A stretch of 64,000 nucleotides of DNA from Bacillus sp. REN16 (GTDB taxonomy: Bacteria > Bacillota > Bacilli > Bacillales > Bacillaceae_L): assembly GCF_020731355.1 (NCBI RefSeq), contig NZ_JAJFZK010000013.1:1-64000 (forward strand), read 5' to 3'. This document shows, piece after piece, positions 121 to 57,100 of the stretch. The first letter of the stretch is position 1. Every line of letters begins with the position of its first letter. The position numbers and the translations under genes are program-made. The notes beneath the pieces were generated by a model. It saw only the letters and a program-made list of their open reading frames with translations. It was not told the DNA's origin and did not search any database.

Positions 121-236
121 TCTAGTGGCGATAGCGAAGAGGTCACACCCGTTCCCATACCGAACACGGAAGTTAAGCTCTTCAGCGCCGATGGTAGTTG
201 GGACTTTGTCCCTGTGAGAGTAGGACGTCGCTAGGC
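121..236 (+). rRNA. rrf: 5S ribosomal RNA
   Basis: The sequence has the usual Bacillus 5S layout: a 5' GGCGATAGCGAAGAGGTCAC segment, the CCGTTCCCATACCGAACACG core and the GTGAGAGTAGGACGTCGC 3' part, about 116 nt in all. The 5' and 3' ends can pair (TAGTGGCG with CGTCGCTA). The region just upstream resembles a 23S-5S spacer, so this is the tail of an rRNA operon whose 16S and 23S genes lie before the window. The ends are accurate to a few bases. Confidence 0.95.
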
Positions 237-1879: not shown

Positions 1880-2716
1880 ATGGAAAAAGAGGTATGGAGA
1901 TTTATTGACTCTGGTCATTGTTCGCCGGAGTTTAATATGGCATTAGATGAAGCATTGCTTGATTGGAATAGCGAAGGAAAAATTCCGCCGACGATTCGTT
2001 TTTATGGTTGGAATCCCGCGACTCTTTCAGTTGGTTATTTTCAAAAAGTAGAAAAGGAAATAGATTTGGATGCTGTGAAAAAATATGGCCTTGGATTTGT
2101 TCGTCGTCCGACAGGCGGAAGAGGGGTCTTACATGATCAGGAACTTACTTATAGTGTGATTGTGTCGGAAGAGCATCCTGAAATGCCTAAAACGGTAACT
2201 GAGGCGTACCGTGTTATTTCTGAAGGTGTTTTGCAAGGCTTCCGTAAATTAGGACTTGATGCATATTTTGCGGTTCCTAAGACAGCTGAAGAACGTGAAG
2301 GATTAAAAAATCCGCGATCAGCCGTGTGTTTTGATGCGCCTTCTTGGTATGAGCTTGTTGTCGAAGGCAGGAAAGTCGCTGGGAGTGCGCAAACGAGACA
2401 GAAGGGTGTTATTCTTCAGCACGGATCAATCCTACTAGATATAGATGAGGATAAATTATTTGATCTATTTAAATATCCTAGTGACCGTGTCAAGGAAAGA
2501 ATGCAGCGTAATTTTAAAAATAAGGCAGTTGCCATAAATGCATTAAGGGAGATTCCGGTTACGATCGAAGAAGCGAAGAAAGCTTTTAAAGAAGGTTTTG
2601 AGGAAGGACTAAATATTGTGCTCGAGCCTTATCAATTGACAGACGATGAAATGGACTATGTTCACGAAATTGAAGAAAGACGATATAAAACAGATGAATG
2701 GAATTTTAAAAGATAA
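1880..2716 (+). CDS. lipM: Octanoyl-[acyl-carrier protein]:protein N-octanoyltransferase LipM
   Basis: LipM moves octanoate from acyl-carrier protein to GcvH, the first step of Bacillus lipoate synthesis. The 278-residue length equals that of B. subtilis LipM. The BPL/LplA/LipB fold shows [12 protein letters not shown] and [11 protein letters not shown], and the nucleophile Cys150 sits in SAVCFDAP. An upstream ATG at 1847 is in frame, but the ATG at 1880 is preceded six bases away by AAGAGGG and gives the family N terminus [12 protein letters not shown]. Downstream lipoylated enzymes in this window (BkdB) depend on this pathway. Confidence 0.95.
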
Positions 2717-2738
2717 CGACTTTTTTTAGTCGTTATTT
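2715..2738 (+). terminator. lipM terminator
   Basis: AACGACT pairs with AGTCGTT around a T-rich loop and is followed by ATTTCC. The stem begins at the lipM stop codon. The T tail is short. Confidence 0.65.
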
Positions 2739-2916
2739 CCTTTGTAAAACGGAAAACTTTGGTATTACTGAGTTTGTTCTATTATAGCTAAATAGCAACC
2801 GACAAAATTCTTCAAAAAAGACGAAATAATTTAGTTTACCTAGTTTTTCCTCTGTTTTTCTTTGTATATTATACTATTTTTAGTTTGACAAAATAGATTT
2901 TGTTTTAACTGTTTAT

Positions 2917-3056: not shown

Positions 3057-6000
3057 ATGACTGTTGTGCTAGAAAAAATGAATATTAATGTTGAAAGGTT
3101 GAACCAGGATATACGCCTTTTTCCTCAGGTCCATCCAATTACGGATGACATGAAGATTACGCATAAGGGCGTATCTAAGCTTGTAATGCTTGATCGGTAT
3201 ACCTTTAAGGATACTGAAAAGCTTACTCTTGCTGAAGGCGACTTTGTTGTTCTAACGATCAAAGAGGATCCAAAGTTTCCAGCACGTGGTTTAGGTTTCA
3301 TCGTTGACATCGATTGGGAGCAAAAGACAGCACGGGTGCTAGTAGAAGAAGAGTATCGTGGTGTGCTGGACAACCCTGAGGAAGTGGAATCAGGGATTGT
3401 AAATCGTTCATTAGATGTTATTGAGAAGCCGCTTGAAATCTTCTATGAGCAAATCGCTAAGAGAAATGCGACTGGTTTGGCTTCTGTTGAGAAAACGGAG
3501 GAAAAGCGTCAGGAATGGTTTGAAAAGTTCTATCAAGAGCTAGTGAACCTAAACTTCATTCCAGCTGGCCGTGTTCTCTATGGGGCAGGTGCGGATACAG
3601 ATGTAACATATTTTAACTGTTACGTAATGCCGTATGTTCAGGATTCTCGCGAAGGTATCTCCGAGCACCGTAAGCAGGTCATGGAAATCATGAGCCGTGG
3701 TGGCGGTGTAGGAACGAACGGTTCTACATTACGCCCACGAAACACACTAGCACGCGGTGTTAATGGTAAGTCATCTGGTTCAGTTTCATGGTTAGATGAC
3801 ATTGCGAAATTAACACACCTTGTTGAACAGGGTGGATCCCGTCGTTAACAGCTCGGCGACGTAATCTCGTGAATTGCTGGAACACCCTAAAGCTTTATCA
3901 GCTACAACGTGACTGGCAACAGTGAGCGTGAATGCTTGAAAATGATAAGGATGAAACAATGGGCAATCAGCAGCGAAGAGCCTTTGGAAACAAAGGTTAA
4001 CGTTCAACGACTATTGAAACTTCCTAAAGTTTCCATTGTGATATCTGAATTAAGTAAGGAGGATTACGATTGGGAACAACGGAGGGAGTAAACCACATTC
4101 GACGGCGACGTAAATATGGGGCACGAGACAAAGAAAAATTAATCGAATTAATTATAAAACTTCATGACGAAGGCTACAGCCAAGTGGATATTGCAGATAT
4201 GCTAAGTATTAATAGAGGAACAATTAAGCGATGGAATGATGAACTTCACTTTATCAATTCAAGGTTACCTGGGGAAGCGGGAAAATTAAAATCAAAAAAA
4301 TATAATTACGACGAAAATTATTTTGCAACAATTTGTACCCCAAATCAGGCTTATATTGTAGGGTATATAACGGGAGATGGGACTATCTTCGATCGTAATA
4401 GTTCTAAAAGATTGGTTTTAGCTCTTGCTGAAACAGATAAGCAATTACTTTTTGATATTAGTGAAGAAATGAATATGAGAGAAGTTGTTAAATTCAGAAA
4501 GAAAAATGCTGAAAATGAACAAAATAAATTCTCATTGACCATCAATTCCACAAAAATGTGTGATGATTTAATAGCATTAGGGATTGGCCCAAGAAAAACT
4601 GGAAGTGAATCGTGGATTGATTTTGGAAACCATGAACTTCAATGGGCATATCTGAGGGGATTCTTTGATGCAGATGGCCATATAAGGGTATATCAAAGAA
4701 ATGGTTATCAAAAAGCGCGAATGGGCTTTACCGGAAATCCTATTATGCTAAAATCAATTCTTAATTTTCTAAAGGCACAAGGGTTTGCAAAGAAAGTTAA
4801 CTCTATCTCACACAAACAAGGTTGTTCTGATCTATATCTAAGTAGCATAGAAGAGTTACGCAATATTGGACAACAGCTGTATAGTCATGGTGATATAATA
4901 TTATTTCGAAAGTATGAAAAATTTCTTTCTTTGATGATATAGTCTGATCTCATGTGAAAGCATGAGAGGATGGCAGAAATGACCATCCCCCTCAAAAGAG
5001 GAGTAACAAATCGGGAGCACAAATGATCATGTTACAATCGGATCACCCGGACATTATTGAGTTCATTATTTCAAAAATGCAAAATCCAAGAATACTTCGT
5101 TATTTAATGGAAAATACAGAAGATGAAACAATCAAAAAATACGCACAAGAAAAACTTAAATTCACTCCATTTACAGAGCAGGAAGTTCAAATGTACCAAG
5201 GTATTGTGAACTATAAACAAATTCCTGGTCTAGGTGGATTTAGTGAAAAAATCATAAAAGACGCTGAACAAAAATTAGTAACAGGCGGAACTTATAGTGT
5301 TCATAATTCTGAGTTTTTAACAGGTGCAAATATTTCAGTTTGTATCACAAAGGATTTCATGCAAGCTGTTGAAGGAGATGGCTTATATGAACTAAAATTC
5401 CCAGATGTAGAAAGCTACAATGCAGAAGAAATGAAACACTACAATGAAGAATGGCATAAGGTTGGGGACGTACGTGAGTGGGAAAAGCTTGGTCATAAAG
5501 TACGTGTGTACCGTAAGATTAAAGCAAAAGAACTTTGGAACCTAATCAATATCTGTGCAACTTATGCTGCAGAACCAGGAATTTTCTTCATTGATAATGC
5601 TAACGACATGACAAATGCACAAAGCTACGGTCAAAAAGTTGTTGCAACAAATCCGTGTGGTGAGCAACCTCTAGCACCTTACAGTGTTTGTAACCTCGCA
5701 GCTGTTAACTTAGCTGAAATGGTGGATAAAGACACAAAAACAGTTAATTTTGATAAACTTAAGCAAACTGTTGAAGTTGGAATTAGAATGCAGGATAACG
5801 TTATCGATGCAACTCCATACTTCTTAGAAGCGAATAAAAAGCAAGCATTAGGTGAGCGCCGTGTTGGTCTAGGTGTTATGGGATTACACGATCTGCTTAT
5901 CTATTGTGAGACAGAATATGGTTCAGAAGAAGGAAATAAGCTGGTTGACGAAGTGTTCGAAACAATTGCAACTACTGCTTACCGTGCTTCAATCGAGCTA

Positions 6001-7065
6001 GCAAAAGAAAAAGGAAGCTTCCCATTCCTAGAAGGTAATTCACCAGAGGATGGCAATCGTATCAGAGAAGCTTTAATCAAAACTGGATATATGGAAAAGA
6101 TGCCGGAAGATATTAAAGAAGGAATCATAGAACACGGTATTCGTAATTCACACTTACTAACCGTTGCTCCTACGGGTAAACAACTTGCCCCCTATATTCG
6201 TAAGAATGTAGCGTAAACTTGGCTGTATGCGGGAAACTCCGAGTATCCTTTTGTACCTGTGTGCCGACACGAAAAGGTAAAAATCAAAAGGTGCGGAAAA
6301 TCCGCAGGGAAGGCGTGGCTGCCCCCTCAACGACTACACGCCGAGCAACCCTGTACAAAACGGGGTTGGTGATATAGTCTGGCCCATATGGCGACATATG
6401 GAGTGGGTACTAATAGTCCCACCCTCTATTGATGATAGAGAGTAACAAACGTGAGCACAGGAACAATGGTTGGCGTCTCTACAGGGTTAGAACCTTACTT
6501 CTCATTCTCATATTTCAGAAGTGGACGCTTAGGTAAGTTTATTGAAGTAAAAGCAGATATCGTTCAAGAATATTTAGATCAGCATCCAGAAGCAGATCCA
6601 AACAATTTGCCTAACTGGTTCGTTTCCGCAATGGAACTTTCACCAGAAGCACATGCTGATGTACAATGTGTCATCCAACGCTGGATTGACAGCTCCATCA
6701 GTAAAACTGTTAACGCACCAAAAGGCTATACAGTTTCACAGGTAGAAGCTGTATACGAGCGCCTCTACAAAGGTGGAGCAAAAGGCGGTACAGTCTACGT
6801 TGACGGAAGTCGTGATTCTCAAGTTCTTACATTAAAAGCAGAAGAGAATACTTTTGAAGATACAGAAGTGACAACAGAGCAAGAAGAAAAGCCAAAAAGC
6901 CGTGTAGTTCTAATGGATACAATCATGGATTTACGTCAAACTGACGTTACAATCGGATCAGAAGTGGGCGATACATGTCCAGTATGTCGTCAAGGGACTG
7001 TTGAAGACCTTGGTGGATGTAACACATGTACAAACTGTAATGCACAACTTAAATGTGGACTATAA
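3057..7065 (+). CDS. nrdJ: Class II (adenosylcobalamin-dependent) ribonucleotide reductase, interrupted by two group I introns
   Basis: The coding sequence is join(3057..3845, 5014..6177, 6454..7065), giving 854 residues without a frameshift. NrdJ reduces ribonucleotides to deoxyribonucleotides using B12. Visible signatures are YFNCYV (active-site cysteine region), NPCGEQPLAPYSVCNLAAVNL (finger loop) and a C-terminal zinc-ribbon-like CPVCRQG...CTNC...C tail. The joins restore GGSRR|GAQMIML and LTVAPTG|STGTM, both conserved stretches of the family. ATG 3057 is preferred to GTG 3051 because GGGAG lies eight bases upstream. Unspliced, the message yields only a 263-residue fragment ending at a TAA in intron 1. 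The gene stands between lipM and yqhO, where B. subtilis has mntR. Confidence 0.92.
3846..5013 (+). ncRNA. Group I intron 1 of nrdJ, with an internal homing-endonuclease gene
   Basis: This 1168-nt insertion lies between the GGSRR and GAQM codons. The 5' exon ends in U and the intron ends in G, as group I splicing requires. The exon end CGUCGU pairs over six bases with GCGACG at 3856-3861 (P1), placing the U.G wobble at the splice site. CGACTA (4007-4012) and TAGTC (4940-4944) supply the two P7 strands, and AATCAGCAGCGAAG is a P4/P6-type segment. Autocatalytic excision is inferred from this pairing. The endonuclease gene occupies the long stretch between the P7 strands, probably the P8 loop. 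Confidence 0.88.
4070..4942 (+). CDS. Intron-encoded LAGLIDADG homing endonuclease with N-terminal helix-turn-helix
   Basis: The product has 290 residues. A helix-turn-helix-like segment (about 20-58, with GYSQVDIADMLSINRGTIKRW) comes first. It is followed by two LAGLIDADG helices, VGYITGDGT at 97-105 and LRGFFDADG at 195-203, each with its acidic metal-binding residue. Such enzymes cut intron-less alleles and so spread the intron; some also help splicing. TTG is the start: TAAGGAGG ends seven bases upstream and no ATG fits. The stop TAG falls inside the 3' P7 strand of the intron, so the gene's end and the ribozyme core share bases. Both acidic motif residues are intact, so activity is plausible. 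Confidence 0.9.
   Translation: MGTTEGVNHIRRRRKYGARDKEKLIELIIKLHDEGYSQVDIADMLSINRGTIKRWNDELHFINSRLPGEAGKLKSKKYNYDENYFATICTPNQAYIVGYITGDGTIFDRNSSKRLVLALAETDKQLLFDISEEMNMREVVKFRKKNAENEQNKFSLTINSTKMCDDLIALGIGPRKTGSESWIDFGNHELQWAYLRGFFDADGHIRVYQRNGYQKARMGFTGNPIMLKSILNFLKAQGFAKKVNSISHKQGCSDLYLSSIEELRNIGQQLYSHGDIILFRKYEKFLSLMI
6178..6453 (+). ncRNA. Group I intron 2 of nrdJ (276 nt, no ORF)
   Basis: The insertion separates VAPTG from STGTM. The exon end GGGU pairs with GCCC at 6187-6190 (P1), with U.G at the splice site, and the intron's last base is G. CGACTACACG (6331-6340) and GATATAGTCT (6371-6380) form the P7 region, and AATCCGCAGGGAAGG resembles a P4/P6 core. Its 3' end, GAGAGTAACAAACGTG, resembles that of intron 1 (GAGTAACAAATCG), which suggests a related subgroup. 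Translation of unspliced RNA would stop 13 codons into the intron. Confidence 0.87.
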
Positions 7066-37696: not shown

Positions 37697-37880
37697 GAAA
37701 AGCGCAAGCGCCTTGGGAGTGGAACATCGACTAACTACTGCCACGTCCTGTGGCAAACATCGATGTCAGCACATCCTGTGCAAGTCCGACAAGCACAAGA
37801 CGAGCGCTGATAGAAGGCGTTCTTTGCCTTCAGAAGCGATTGGCTTGTGACCTCGAGGGGCTAGGCGCCGGAGCTAGACA
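37697..37880 (+). repeat. Family A dispersed repeat between bcd and buk (long copy)
   Basis: It runs from AAAAGCGCAAGCGCC to GGCGCCGGAGCTAGACA. Inside are two short hairpins, GCCACGTCCTGTGGC (37740-37754) and GCACATCCTGTGC (37769-37781), then the common core AAGCACAAGACGAGCGCTGA and CCTCGAGGGGCTAGG. It lengthens the bcd-buk gap within the operon to about 275 bp without any visible promoter. Confidence 0.88.
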
Positions 37881-48118: not shown

Positions 48119-49214
48119 TAAAAAAAATCGACCTGAATGGGTGCCGGAAAACGCCTCTGATGGTTTTACAACAGAAATTGTGAAGGGAAAAGACCCAGCT
48201 AGCGCATCTGACAGCGGTCGTAAATTTGTTAAAACGAAAGGGCGATCAACTGAAGAGTATGTAGAAGGAATCCGCAATGGCAATCGTGCCGTTCTTGCAC
48301 AAGCCATTACTCTTGTTGAAAGCAACGCAAAACGACATGAAGACCAGGCACAGGCAGTCATAAATGAAATTCTTCCACACACTGGAAATTCAATCCGAAT
48401 CGGGATTACTGGGGTCCCGGGAGCGGGTAAAAGTACGTTTATCGAAAGCTTTGGTTCGTATCTTTGCGAACAGGGGCATCGGGTTGCTGTTTTAGCTGTT
48501 GACCCAAGCAGCAGTATTACGGGCGGAAGTATACTTGGTGATAAAACACGCATGGAGACACTTGCCCGGAATAAAAATGCATTTATTCGTCCGTCTCCAT
48601 CAGGAGGGACTCTTGGTGGTGTAAATCGAAAAACAAGAGAAACGATTTTACTTTGTGAAGCAGCAGGGTTTGATGTGATTCTTGTGGAGACGATTGGTGT
48701 TGGGCAAAGCGAAGTTGTGGTTAGGAGTATGGTGGATTTTTTCCTTCTCCTCGTATTAACCGGTGCAGGGGATGAATTACAAGGTATGAAAAAAGGTGTC
48801 ATGGAGCTTGCTGATACTTTATTGATTAATAAAGCAGATGGTGAAAATCGCCAGAAGGCTAAGGTAGCACGCGGAGAGTACAATCGTATTCTGCACCTTC
48901 TTCAGCCTGCAACAAAAGGCTGGTCATCAAAGGCTTATACAGTTTCCGCACTCTATCATGAAGGAATGGAAGAAACGTGGAAAATTGTCCGGCGATTTAT
49001 GGAGACAACGAAAGAATCCGGAGTGTTTATGGAGCGCAGAAACTCACAAACAAAGGACTGGATTTATGCAATGATAAAGGATTATCTTGAAACAAGCTTT
49101 TTTACCAATCCCTCCGTTAAAGCGCAGCTTCCTTTGCTCGAAAACAAGGTTGTGCAAGGAGATTTGAATGTAACGATGGCTGTGAAGGAATTAATTCAAC
49201 TTTTTGAAGCATAA
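48111..49214 (+). CDS. meaB: Methylmalonyl-CoA mutase-associated GTPase MeaB (ArgK family)
   Basis: MeaB guards the mutase and gates delivery of adenosylcobalamin. The 367-residue G3E-type GTPase has Walker [10 protein letters not shown], the [20 protein letters not shown] switch region, [10 protein letters not shown] and the base-specificity motif NKAD. ATG 48111 overlaps the mutB stop by eight bases; ATG 48096 is an alternative five codons upstream. The mutA-mutB-meaB order is the usual one. Confidence 0.95.
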
Positions 49215-49219
49215 AGAAA

Positions 49220-49246
49220 GAAGGAGAGATTTCGCTCTCCTTCCAT
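49220..49246 (+). terminator. Hairpin after meaB
   Basis: GAAGGAGAG pairs perfectly with CTCTCCTTC, but only CATCT follows, so termination may be inefficient. Confidence 0.6.
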
Positions 49247-49399
49247 CTAGGGAGTTTAGGGGTATGATCTAGATGTATTTATAGAATACCCGAATATGAA
49301 ATTTTTAAACGTCATTTACAGTATCTTAAATTTGAAAAACTATGTTCTAAATTGATATTATGAAACTAAGCAAGATATTTTTTTGAAGGAGTGGACAAT

Positions 49400-56917: not shown

Positions 56918-57100
56918 AAAAGCGCAGCGCCTTGAAGTTGAACGTCAACTAAAACCTGCCACGTCCTGTGGCAAACGTAGACGTCAGCACATCATGTGCA
57001 AGTCCGACAAGCATAAGACGAGACGGCTAGAAGGTTGCCCTTTGACCTTCTTGACGGATTGGCTTATGACCTCGAGGGGCTAGGCGCTGAAGCTGGATGT
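56918..57100 (+). repeat. Family A dispersed repeat after yqjE (long copy)
   Basis: The copy runs from AAAAGCGCAGCGCC to GGCGCTGAAGCTGGATG. It holds GCCACGTCCTGTGGC (56958-56972), GCACATCATGTGC and CCTCGAGGGGCTAGGCGC, like the copy at 37697. It lies between the yqjE stop and its terminator, so it would be transcribed with yqjE. Confidence 0.87.

Follow-up and report, generated by a model that had tools for sequence, protein, structure and literature searches.

A group I intron with a LAGLIDADG endonuclease gene in the B12-dependent ribonucleotide reductase gene of Bacillus sp. REN16, and signs that nrdJ may be a hot spot for mobile introns

The first 7 kb of a 64,000-nucleotide (nt) stretch of the Bacillus sp. 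REN16 genome (contig NZ_JAJFZK010000013.1, positions 1 to 64,000; hereafter the window) hold nrdJ, the gene of the class II, adenosylcobalamin-dependent (B12-dependent) ribonucleotide reductase (RNR), as three exons and two inserts. The larger insert, at 3846-5013 and called A1 here, is best explained, almost certainly in our judgement, as a group I intron that is mobile, removes itself from the transcript and carries a homing endonuclease gene; its type is most likely the phage-like IA. Its boundaries, fold and covariation, the empty sites in related genomes, the conserved endonuclease open reading frame (ORF) and the variation between relatives are supported by the sequences; splicing in the cell, cutting and homing are what we infer from them. 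The positions of all features are collected in Table 1.

Removal of both inserts leaves an 853-residue frame without stops that is 95.8% identical to an intact relative in a spliced alignment. The only conditions placed on an insert in this alignment were a preceding T, a final G and a minimum length of 150 nt; it found exactly two inserts in the window gene, at 3846-5013 and 6178-6453. Exons 1 and 2, scanned apart, match the NCBIfam model NF005991 (vitamin B12-dependent RNR) with 511.7 and 750.8 bits (the cut-off of 854 applies to the whole protein), and their join is seamless because the model positions run on directly, from 6-264 in exon 1 to 265-653 in exon 2. TIGR02504 was matched in the same scan, and exon 3 matches PF02867. 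A preliminary description of this DNA had correctly read an intron at 3846-5013 but was incomplete, since it missed the second group I intron at 6178-6453 (intron C), which matches the Rfam group I model RF00028 with 73.9 bits over 6168-6401; the gene thus consists of three exons plus an endonuclease ORF.

What that description had said of the boundaries and core of A1 holds. The nrdJ frame stops after GGSRR at a TAA (3846-3848) and resumes 1168 nt further on, at 5014, with GGA GCA CAA ATG (GAQM). The last exon base, U3845, forms a U·G pair with G3856, and the last intron base is G5013; P1 joins CGUCGU and GCGACG over six bases, and both strands of P7 are present (GACUA and UAGUC). Together with the empty sites in the same genus and the covariation among relatives, these features support the group I reading of 3846-5013. 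As the in-frame TAA is the first codon of the intron, translation of unspliced RNA would end at the splice site. P3 and P8 of A1 are 7 and 8 base pairs long, and the helices of the 5' core are also present in relatives. P7.1 and P7.2 lie between P7 and P3, an arrangement which we take to be the mark of group I subgroup IA (IA1/IA2); by this criterion A1 looks like an IA intron.

The fold was compared in an alignment of 14 A1 relatives without an intact endonuclease gene. Unaided and without pseudoknots, the RNAalifold consensus has 86 pairs, 40 of which show changes on both sides that keep the pairing. A model of 81 pairs that comprises the P3-P9 core, with P7 crossing P3, is paired in 99.0% of cells (98.6% for P7 and 100% for P3), and 36 of its pairs show double changes; such changes occur in 3/5 pairs of P7.1 and 5/6 pairs of P7.2. 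None of 500 shuffles reached either of the two values of the model, and sliding the partners by one to three columns left only 36-44% paired.

The ORF within A1 is looped out of P8; its N-terminus is encoded by the stretch that forms P7.1, P7.2 and P3, and its TAG stop overlaps the 3' strand of P7. The protein matches PF14528 with 39.2 bits (cut-off 22.5), in one stretch at the default limit and in two at a loose limit, and 15 aligned relatives are 47-72% identical to it. D103 and D202, the acidic residues of the two LAGLIDADG motifs, are invariant across the 16 aligned proteins. Mean divergence at codon positions 1, 2 and 3 is 0.32, 0.21 and 0.55, with the third position the highest in all 120 pairs, from which it follows that the endonuclease has been maintained as a protein. 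AlphaFold2 models it with a mean predicted local distance difference test score (pLDDT) of 85.4 and a predicted template-modelling score (pTM) of 0.72. A single-sequence search of solved structures found no relative of the endonuclease; a profile search matched a single LAGLIDADG repeat to I-AniI and I-HjeMI, with E 9.5e-7 to 2.3e-4.

These features suggest how the element could work. In the nrdJ transcript A1 would fold into the P3-P9 ribozyme, and its guide would pair with the six bases that close exon 1 (P1) and with the start of exon 2 (P10). Removal of A1 by its own activity, with guanosine as cofactor, would then join codon 263 to codon 264, and intron C would splice independently. The LAGLIDADG enzyme encoded in the P8 loop probably cuts intronless nrdJ around codons 262-264, and repair of the break would copy the intron in.

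Several intron states were found among nine genomes of the genus, the window genome included. In four of them nrdJ is uninterrupted (G001, G003, G004 and G007), and six have no intron at codons 262-264 and hence an empty site for A1. Codon 263 is occupied in the window, by the 1168-nt intron with its ORF intact, and in G008, by a 498-nt copy whose ORF is mostly deleted; codon 264 is occupied in G002 (355 nt), and codon 479 in G005 and G002. At codon 651 the window has the 276-nt intron C, G006 a 379-nt intron with a remnant, G008 a 1129-nt intron whose ORF is broken in two, and G002 another of 1129 nt with an open 267-residue ORF. Exon joining restores the full NrdJ frame in all five interrupted genomes, the window genome among them.

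Beyond the genus, 345 of the 396 genomes searched in the order have NrdJ, and the best 150 of these 345 rows were judged; as only the best-scoring rows were taken, the sample favours enzymes like that of the window. Of the 150, 79 are open frames of at least 840 residues; the frame is cut in the other 71, in 49 of them near codons 262-272, in 16 near 479 and in six near 651. Outside the genus 65 of the 67 cut loci map to a full-length NrdJ with at least one insert, which with four genus members gives 69 of the best 150 rows as fully mapped interrupted genes. Left out of the counts were L043, which was too divergent for the aligner and was aligned by hand, L137, where the first half of a codon-264 intron is followed by the contig end, and L138, whose gene runs off the contig with no intron mapped. 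A search with the endonuclease yielded 16 loci, biased towards codons 262/263. Joining the exons gives a full NrdJ frame without a stop at 65/65 loci of the order survey and at 15/15 tallied loci of the endonuclease search. Three loci (L090, L094 and L120) duplicate others (L050, L039 and L042), which does not affect the count of 69, as it uses order-survey and genus loci only. As a control, gyrB was taken from 150 genomes of the order, drawn separately but overlapping; none of the 148 main gyrB rows judged is interrupted, and all have frames of at least 637 residues (these are the best 150 rows less two of a lower-scoring paralogue, and the gyrB genes of two genomes lie outside the 148). In a search of 159 genomes of the phylum outside the order, 27 had a match, the window genome included; none of the other 26 is cut at codons 262-272, and their frames have at least 611 residues, nearly all belonging to enzymes distant from the window NrdJ.

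The inserts occupy few positions. With duplicates removed and the loci of the endonuclease search included, 125 inserts were mapped (130 before the three duplicated loci were dropped): 26 after codon 262, 8 after 263, 19 after 264, 22 after 272, 35 after 479 and 15 after 651, the codon-272 sites and one codon-264 site being assigned from the sequence by hand. No ORF of 200 residues is present in 83 of the 125. All 60 introns at 262/263 and 272 (duplicates included) begin with an in-frame stop codon. The endonuclease tends to be specific to the site, as judged by a scan of one representative ORF per type and by eye for the rest: LAGLIDADG proteins with a helix-turn-helix are found at codons 262-264 (one codon-264 ORF is DUF559/Vsr-like instead), and HNH proteins at codon 272. 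Long inserts at codon 479 encode a protein with PDF...EIK motifs, of which the one scanned has no Pfam match, and the codon-651 ORFs read by eye as zinc-ribbon HNH proteins, for which Pfam gives only a weak zinc-finger match. Joint occupation of codons 262 and 272, or of 264 and 272, leaves an exon of only 30 or 24 nt between two introns. This was seen at 6/65 loci of the order survey and 10/15 of the endonuclease search, one gene being in both counts (L041, L044, L046-L052, L054, L076, L077, L100, L101 and L104; L090 repeats L050). In one of these genes (L101, genome G151) a group II intron with a reverse-transcriptase-like ORF (RF00029, 66.5 bits) stands after NPCGEQ, beside three group I introns.

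When 15 loci were scanned with RF00028, the threshold was reached at every mapped insert at codons 262-264, 272 and 651 and at none of the eight inserts at codon 479 (NPCG/E), which we take to hold the radical cysteine; in five loci no codon-479 match appeared at E up to 1. Sixteen of the 19 short inserts at codon 479 nevertheless align to a group I-like consensus with P1, P3-P6, P8 and P9, in which 35/60 pairs show kept double changes. This alignment includes L034, L038, L093 and L103, and also L053, which looks like another type; the inserts outside it (L052, L098 and L100) look different too. The main lineage at codon 479 probably represents a divergent type of group I intron.

Guide and exon change together. 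All 37 introns examined at codons 262/263 (three duplicated loci included) have a guide that exactly matches the final six bases of their own exon, with U·G at the end, across three exon hexamers (26 TCCCGT, 8 CGTCGT and 3 AGTCGT). At codon 479, 34 introns have CCGTGTGGT with GCCTCACG and two have CCATGTGGT with GCCTCATG (duplicates included), the second variant being a silent codon change mirrored in the guide. Such matched changes are hard to explain unless the inserts splice.

One intron lineage follows codon 262 or codon 263, depending on the genome. By eye, and with duplicates included, the two codons before the codon-263 introns are CGT CGT in 8/8 cases, and for the codon-262 introns the preceding codon is CGT in 29/29 and the following codon CGT in 25/29. 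With a CGT repeat around the site, the joined message would be the same in most cases and the intron would have moved across one repeat unit. In a tree of 33 intron cores (223 columns, guide and last 8 nt excluded), from which three duplicates were dropped and in which 20 of 56 rows, including 17 of the 19 codon-264 introns, are missing because their anchors were not found, the codon-263 introns do not form one clade (approximately unbiased (AU) test, p 0.0187), and the starred branches force three changes. We read this as repeated one-codon shifts, although the data are short and gene conversion could confuse them. The endonuclease tree, with 16 rows, is too poorly resolved to place the register change, and one relevant starred clade mixes codons 262 and 263.

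Movement between species was considered on the same core tree. When the intron cores are constrained to the topology of NrdJ, taken from a quick tree with open forks, the log-likelihood drops by 198 units (AU p ~2e-58). The state of the A site, where A1 lies, requires 31 changes over 86 NrdJ rows, most of which were chosen as interrupted, and two genomes (G202 and G348) have identical NrdJ proteins and different introns. In the metagenome-assembled L043, a 1180-nt intron in the codon-262 register lies in an nrdJ whose product is ~43% identical to that of the window over the aligned parts, and its endonuclease is 66% identical to the window protein; this locus is better explained by transfer, as one would hardly expect the reductase to change faster than a homing endonuclease. 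The conflict between the two trees, together with L043, makes lateral movement of the intron between species likely. Against transfer, introns and exons are equally similar between the window and G008 (90.6-92.2% in the intron pieces, 90.9% in the exons), and several other relatives likewise have intron identity near exon identity. A record titled Arthrobacter beigongshangensis (L045) names an actinomycete by the taxonomy, but its nrdJ clusters with those of Sporosarcina; the record may be misnamed, or its assembly faulty.

An origin of the window copy from a phage or plasmid was considered and set aside, as no close relative of its endonuclease was found there. Among phages 104 records match the endonuclease, all below 60% identity and at most ~32% among the 30 matches listed; four loci in viral contigs match at 25-39%, and five plasmid records match, all below 60%. 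The ribozyme core alone, represented by the first 215 nt of A1, matches 293 phage records (75-78% identity over 67-74% of this length in the 15 matches listed), so that the core may be of ancient phage origin.

A number of points weigh against the view of A1 as an active, mobile intron. The covariance search that the preliminary description had proposed did match A1, in two pieces on either side of the ORF (38.9 and 27.6 bits; E 5e-8 and 1.2e-4), but both stay below the RF00028 gathering score of 50. This is expected because the ORF splits the core, and the short copy in G008, with most of the ORF gone, scores 65.4 bits, above the threshold. One pair in P7.2 of the window copy is mismatched. 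P7 is nearly invariant among the relatives, so that covariation says little about it, and the pairs of the 81-pair model were picked partly on the same sequences, which gives it an advantage over the slid controls. Moreover, several relatives of the endonuclease have ATG where the window reads ACG; the window protein may therefore start at TTG, and its expression may be weak.

Three other explanations were weighed. First, A1 could splice and yet be an immobile passenger, vertically inherited and with an inactive endonuclease. The loss of the usual ATG and the equal identity of intron and exon between the window and G008, which fits vertical descent, speak for this; the invariant D103 and D202, the excess of third-position change in every pair of endonucleases and the strong conflict of the core and NrdJ trees speak against it, and we consider it unlikely, though it deserves to be taken seriously. 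Second, A1 could be a group I intron that has decayed and lost the ability to splice, in which case nrdJ would be broken and the cell would rely on another reductase. Loss of NrdJ could be tolerated, as the window genome has a second reductase-like gene with an open frame of 768 residues (class I by eye; all eight such frames listed for the genus, of 762-788 residues, are uninterrupted), and the mismatch in P7.2 would fit decay. However, the remaining listed helices of the window copy are all paired, the guide matches the exon exactly, and the three exons are open and join to a protein 95.8% identical to an intact NrdJ; we find decay very improbable. Finally, that the fragments are separate proteins which assemble while the insert stays unspliced is scarcely credible, even though split RNR genes, one of class II included, are known in phages from the part of PMC3653736 cited here and exon 2 has an ATG at 5023, since across dozens of genomes the breaks fall at a few recurring codons. 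Both the split-gene and the broken-gene readings are disfavoured by the adherence to the U/G rule with matching guides and by the two-thirds or so of inserts (83/125) that lack a 200-residue ORF.

On a wider view, we lean, by a modest measure, towards a picture in which nrdJ of the order is a hot spot on the chromosome: several lineages of mobile introns, each with an endonuclease family of its own, would vie for a small number of codons and be passed from species to species. The window lineage would have shifted repeatedly by one codon across the tandem CGT/CGT arginine repeat, its guide being rewritten and the spliced message left unchanged, and the codon-479 lineage would be a divergent group I type invisible to the Rfam model.

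Group I introns have been reported in bacterial protein genes such as those of flagellin, recA and nrdE, and the review concerned, in the part cited here, sees little evidence for bacterial introns moving between bacterial species (PMC3984707). The introns of Bacillus nrdE/nrdF and recA and of phage nrdE (Twort, SPbeta) resemble A1, as far as the cited portions of PMC3653736 and PMC3984707 describe them, in placing a group I ribozyme in RNR genes near conserved residues, sometimes two per gene and sometimes with a homing endonuclease. The nrdE/nrdF introns lie in class I reductase genes, whereas those described here lie in a class II nrdJ of a bacterial chromosome and, at the A1 site, carry a LAGLIDADG enzyme with an N-terminal helix-turn-helix. 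Introns of Bastillevirinae phages are, in the cited part of PMC11878797, mostly IA-like with a homing endonuclease ORF that interrupts the ribozyme, and the same source describes in the reductase gene of phage phiNIT1 a small exon between two introns, as in some nrdJ genes. Unlike the window intron they are in phage genes. The likeness to I-AniI and I-HjeMI extends over one LAGLIDADG repeat, and the added N-terminal helix-turn-helix is a property of the window protein. The phage introns that share the P3-P6 core with A1 are in different host genes where these are annotated, and the phage relatives of the endonuclease are distant. RNRdb holds more than 100 curated group I introns in RNR genes, according to the cited part of PMC2795772, which gives no host names. 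A literature search by title and abstract start found no report of group I introns in bacterial nrdJ, although RNRdb may hold nrdJ cases.

Group I introns are also present elsewhere in the window genome. Three lie within ~2 kb on contig C45 (locus L009, 2813-3066, 3946-4294 and 4389-4735), in a flagellin gene by eye, with a LAGLIDADG-like ORF of 324 residues on the opposite strand (4860-5834). Another, near the end of contig C2 (L010, 93.3 bits), adjoins a frame that by eye is thymidylate synthase-like. At L011 a group I match of 38 bits, below the cut-off (2151-2430, minus strand), overlaps the 3' end of the transfer-messenger RNA (2419-2757, minus strand) and adjoins what reads as smpB, with a LAGLIDADG-like ORF of 135 residues on the opposite strand (1653-2060).

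Table 1. Features of the window, with nrdJ and its introns first and other RNA features last
Feature	Position	Strand	Description
nrdJ exon 1	3057..3845	+	residues 1-263, ends GGSRR; aligned with the intact 853-residue NrdJ of G007
P1	3840..3861	+	exon CGUCGU 3840-3845 / guide GCGACG 3856-3861; U·G at the 5' splice site
Group I intron A1	3846..5013	+	1168 nt, after codon 263 (GGSRR/GAQM)
P10 guide GCUC	3851..3854	+	predicted from complementarity to pair with 3' exon GAGC 5015-5018
5' core	3865..4013	+	P3 5' strand 3865-3871; P4 3875-3880/3967-3972; P5 3885-3887/3961-3963; P5 extensions 3893-3950
5' core, rest	within 3865..4013	+	P6 3973-3975/4001-4003; P6a 3979-3998; P7 5' strand 4009-4013
P7.1 to P8 stretch	4020..4136	+	P7.1 4020-4024/4081-4085; P7.2 4093-4098/4114-4119; P3 3' strand 4122-4128; P8 5' strand 4129-4136
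Shine-Dalgarno-like AAGGAGG	4056..4062	+	7 nt before the TTG start
Putative homing endonuclease gene	4070..4942	+	290 residues, TTG start, N-terminal helix-turn-helix, LAGLIDADG motifs YIVGYITGDG and YLRGFFDADG
3' core	4926..5001	+	P8 3' strand 4926-4933; P7 3' strand 4940-4944; P9 4949-4954/4961-4966
3' core, rest	within 4926..5001	+	P9.1 4968-4973/4983-4988; P9.2 4990-4993/4998-5001
nrdJ exon 2	5014..6177	+	residues 264-651, contains NPCGE, ends APTG
Group I intron C	6178..6453	+	276 nt, no ORF, after codon 651 (APTG/STGT)
nrdJ exon 3	6454..7065	+	residues 652-853 and stop
5S rRNA	121-236		
Bacillaceae-1 RNA	37715-37782		
Bacillaceae-1 RNA	56933-57000		
Listeria sRNA sbrA family match	49213-49278	-	

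In summary, the reading of A1 stands and a second intron joins it; most worth pursuing are how densely introns gather in nrdJ, how they seem to travel between species and how their register shifts by one codon. In a sample of one order this single chromosomal gene yields 125 mapped group I-like introns, and empty, endonuclease-bearing, endonuclease-decayed and ORF-less states occur even within one genus. Gene callers would split such genes, and B12-dependent nucleotide reduction may therefore be under-annotated in these genomes. The introns of nrdJ open the homing cycle, lateral transfer, shifts of register and the co-evolution of guide and exon to direct testing.

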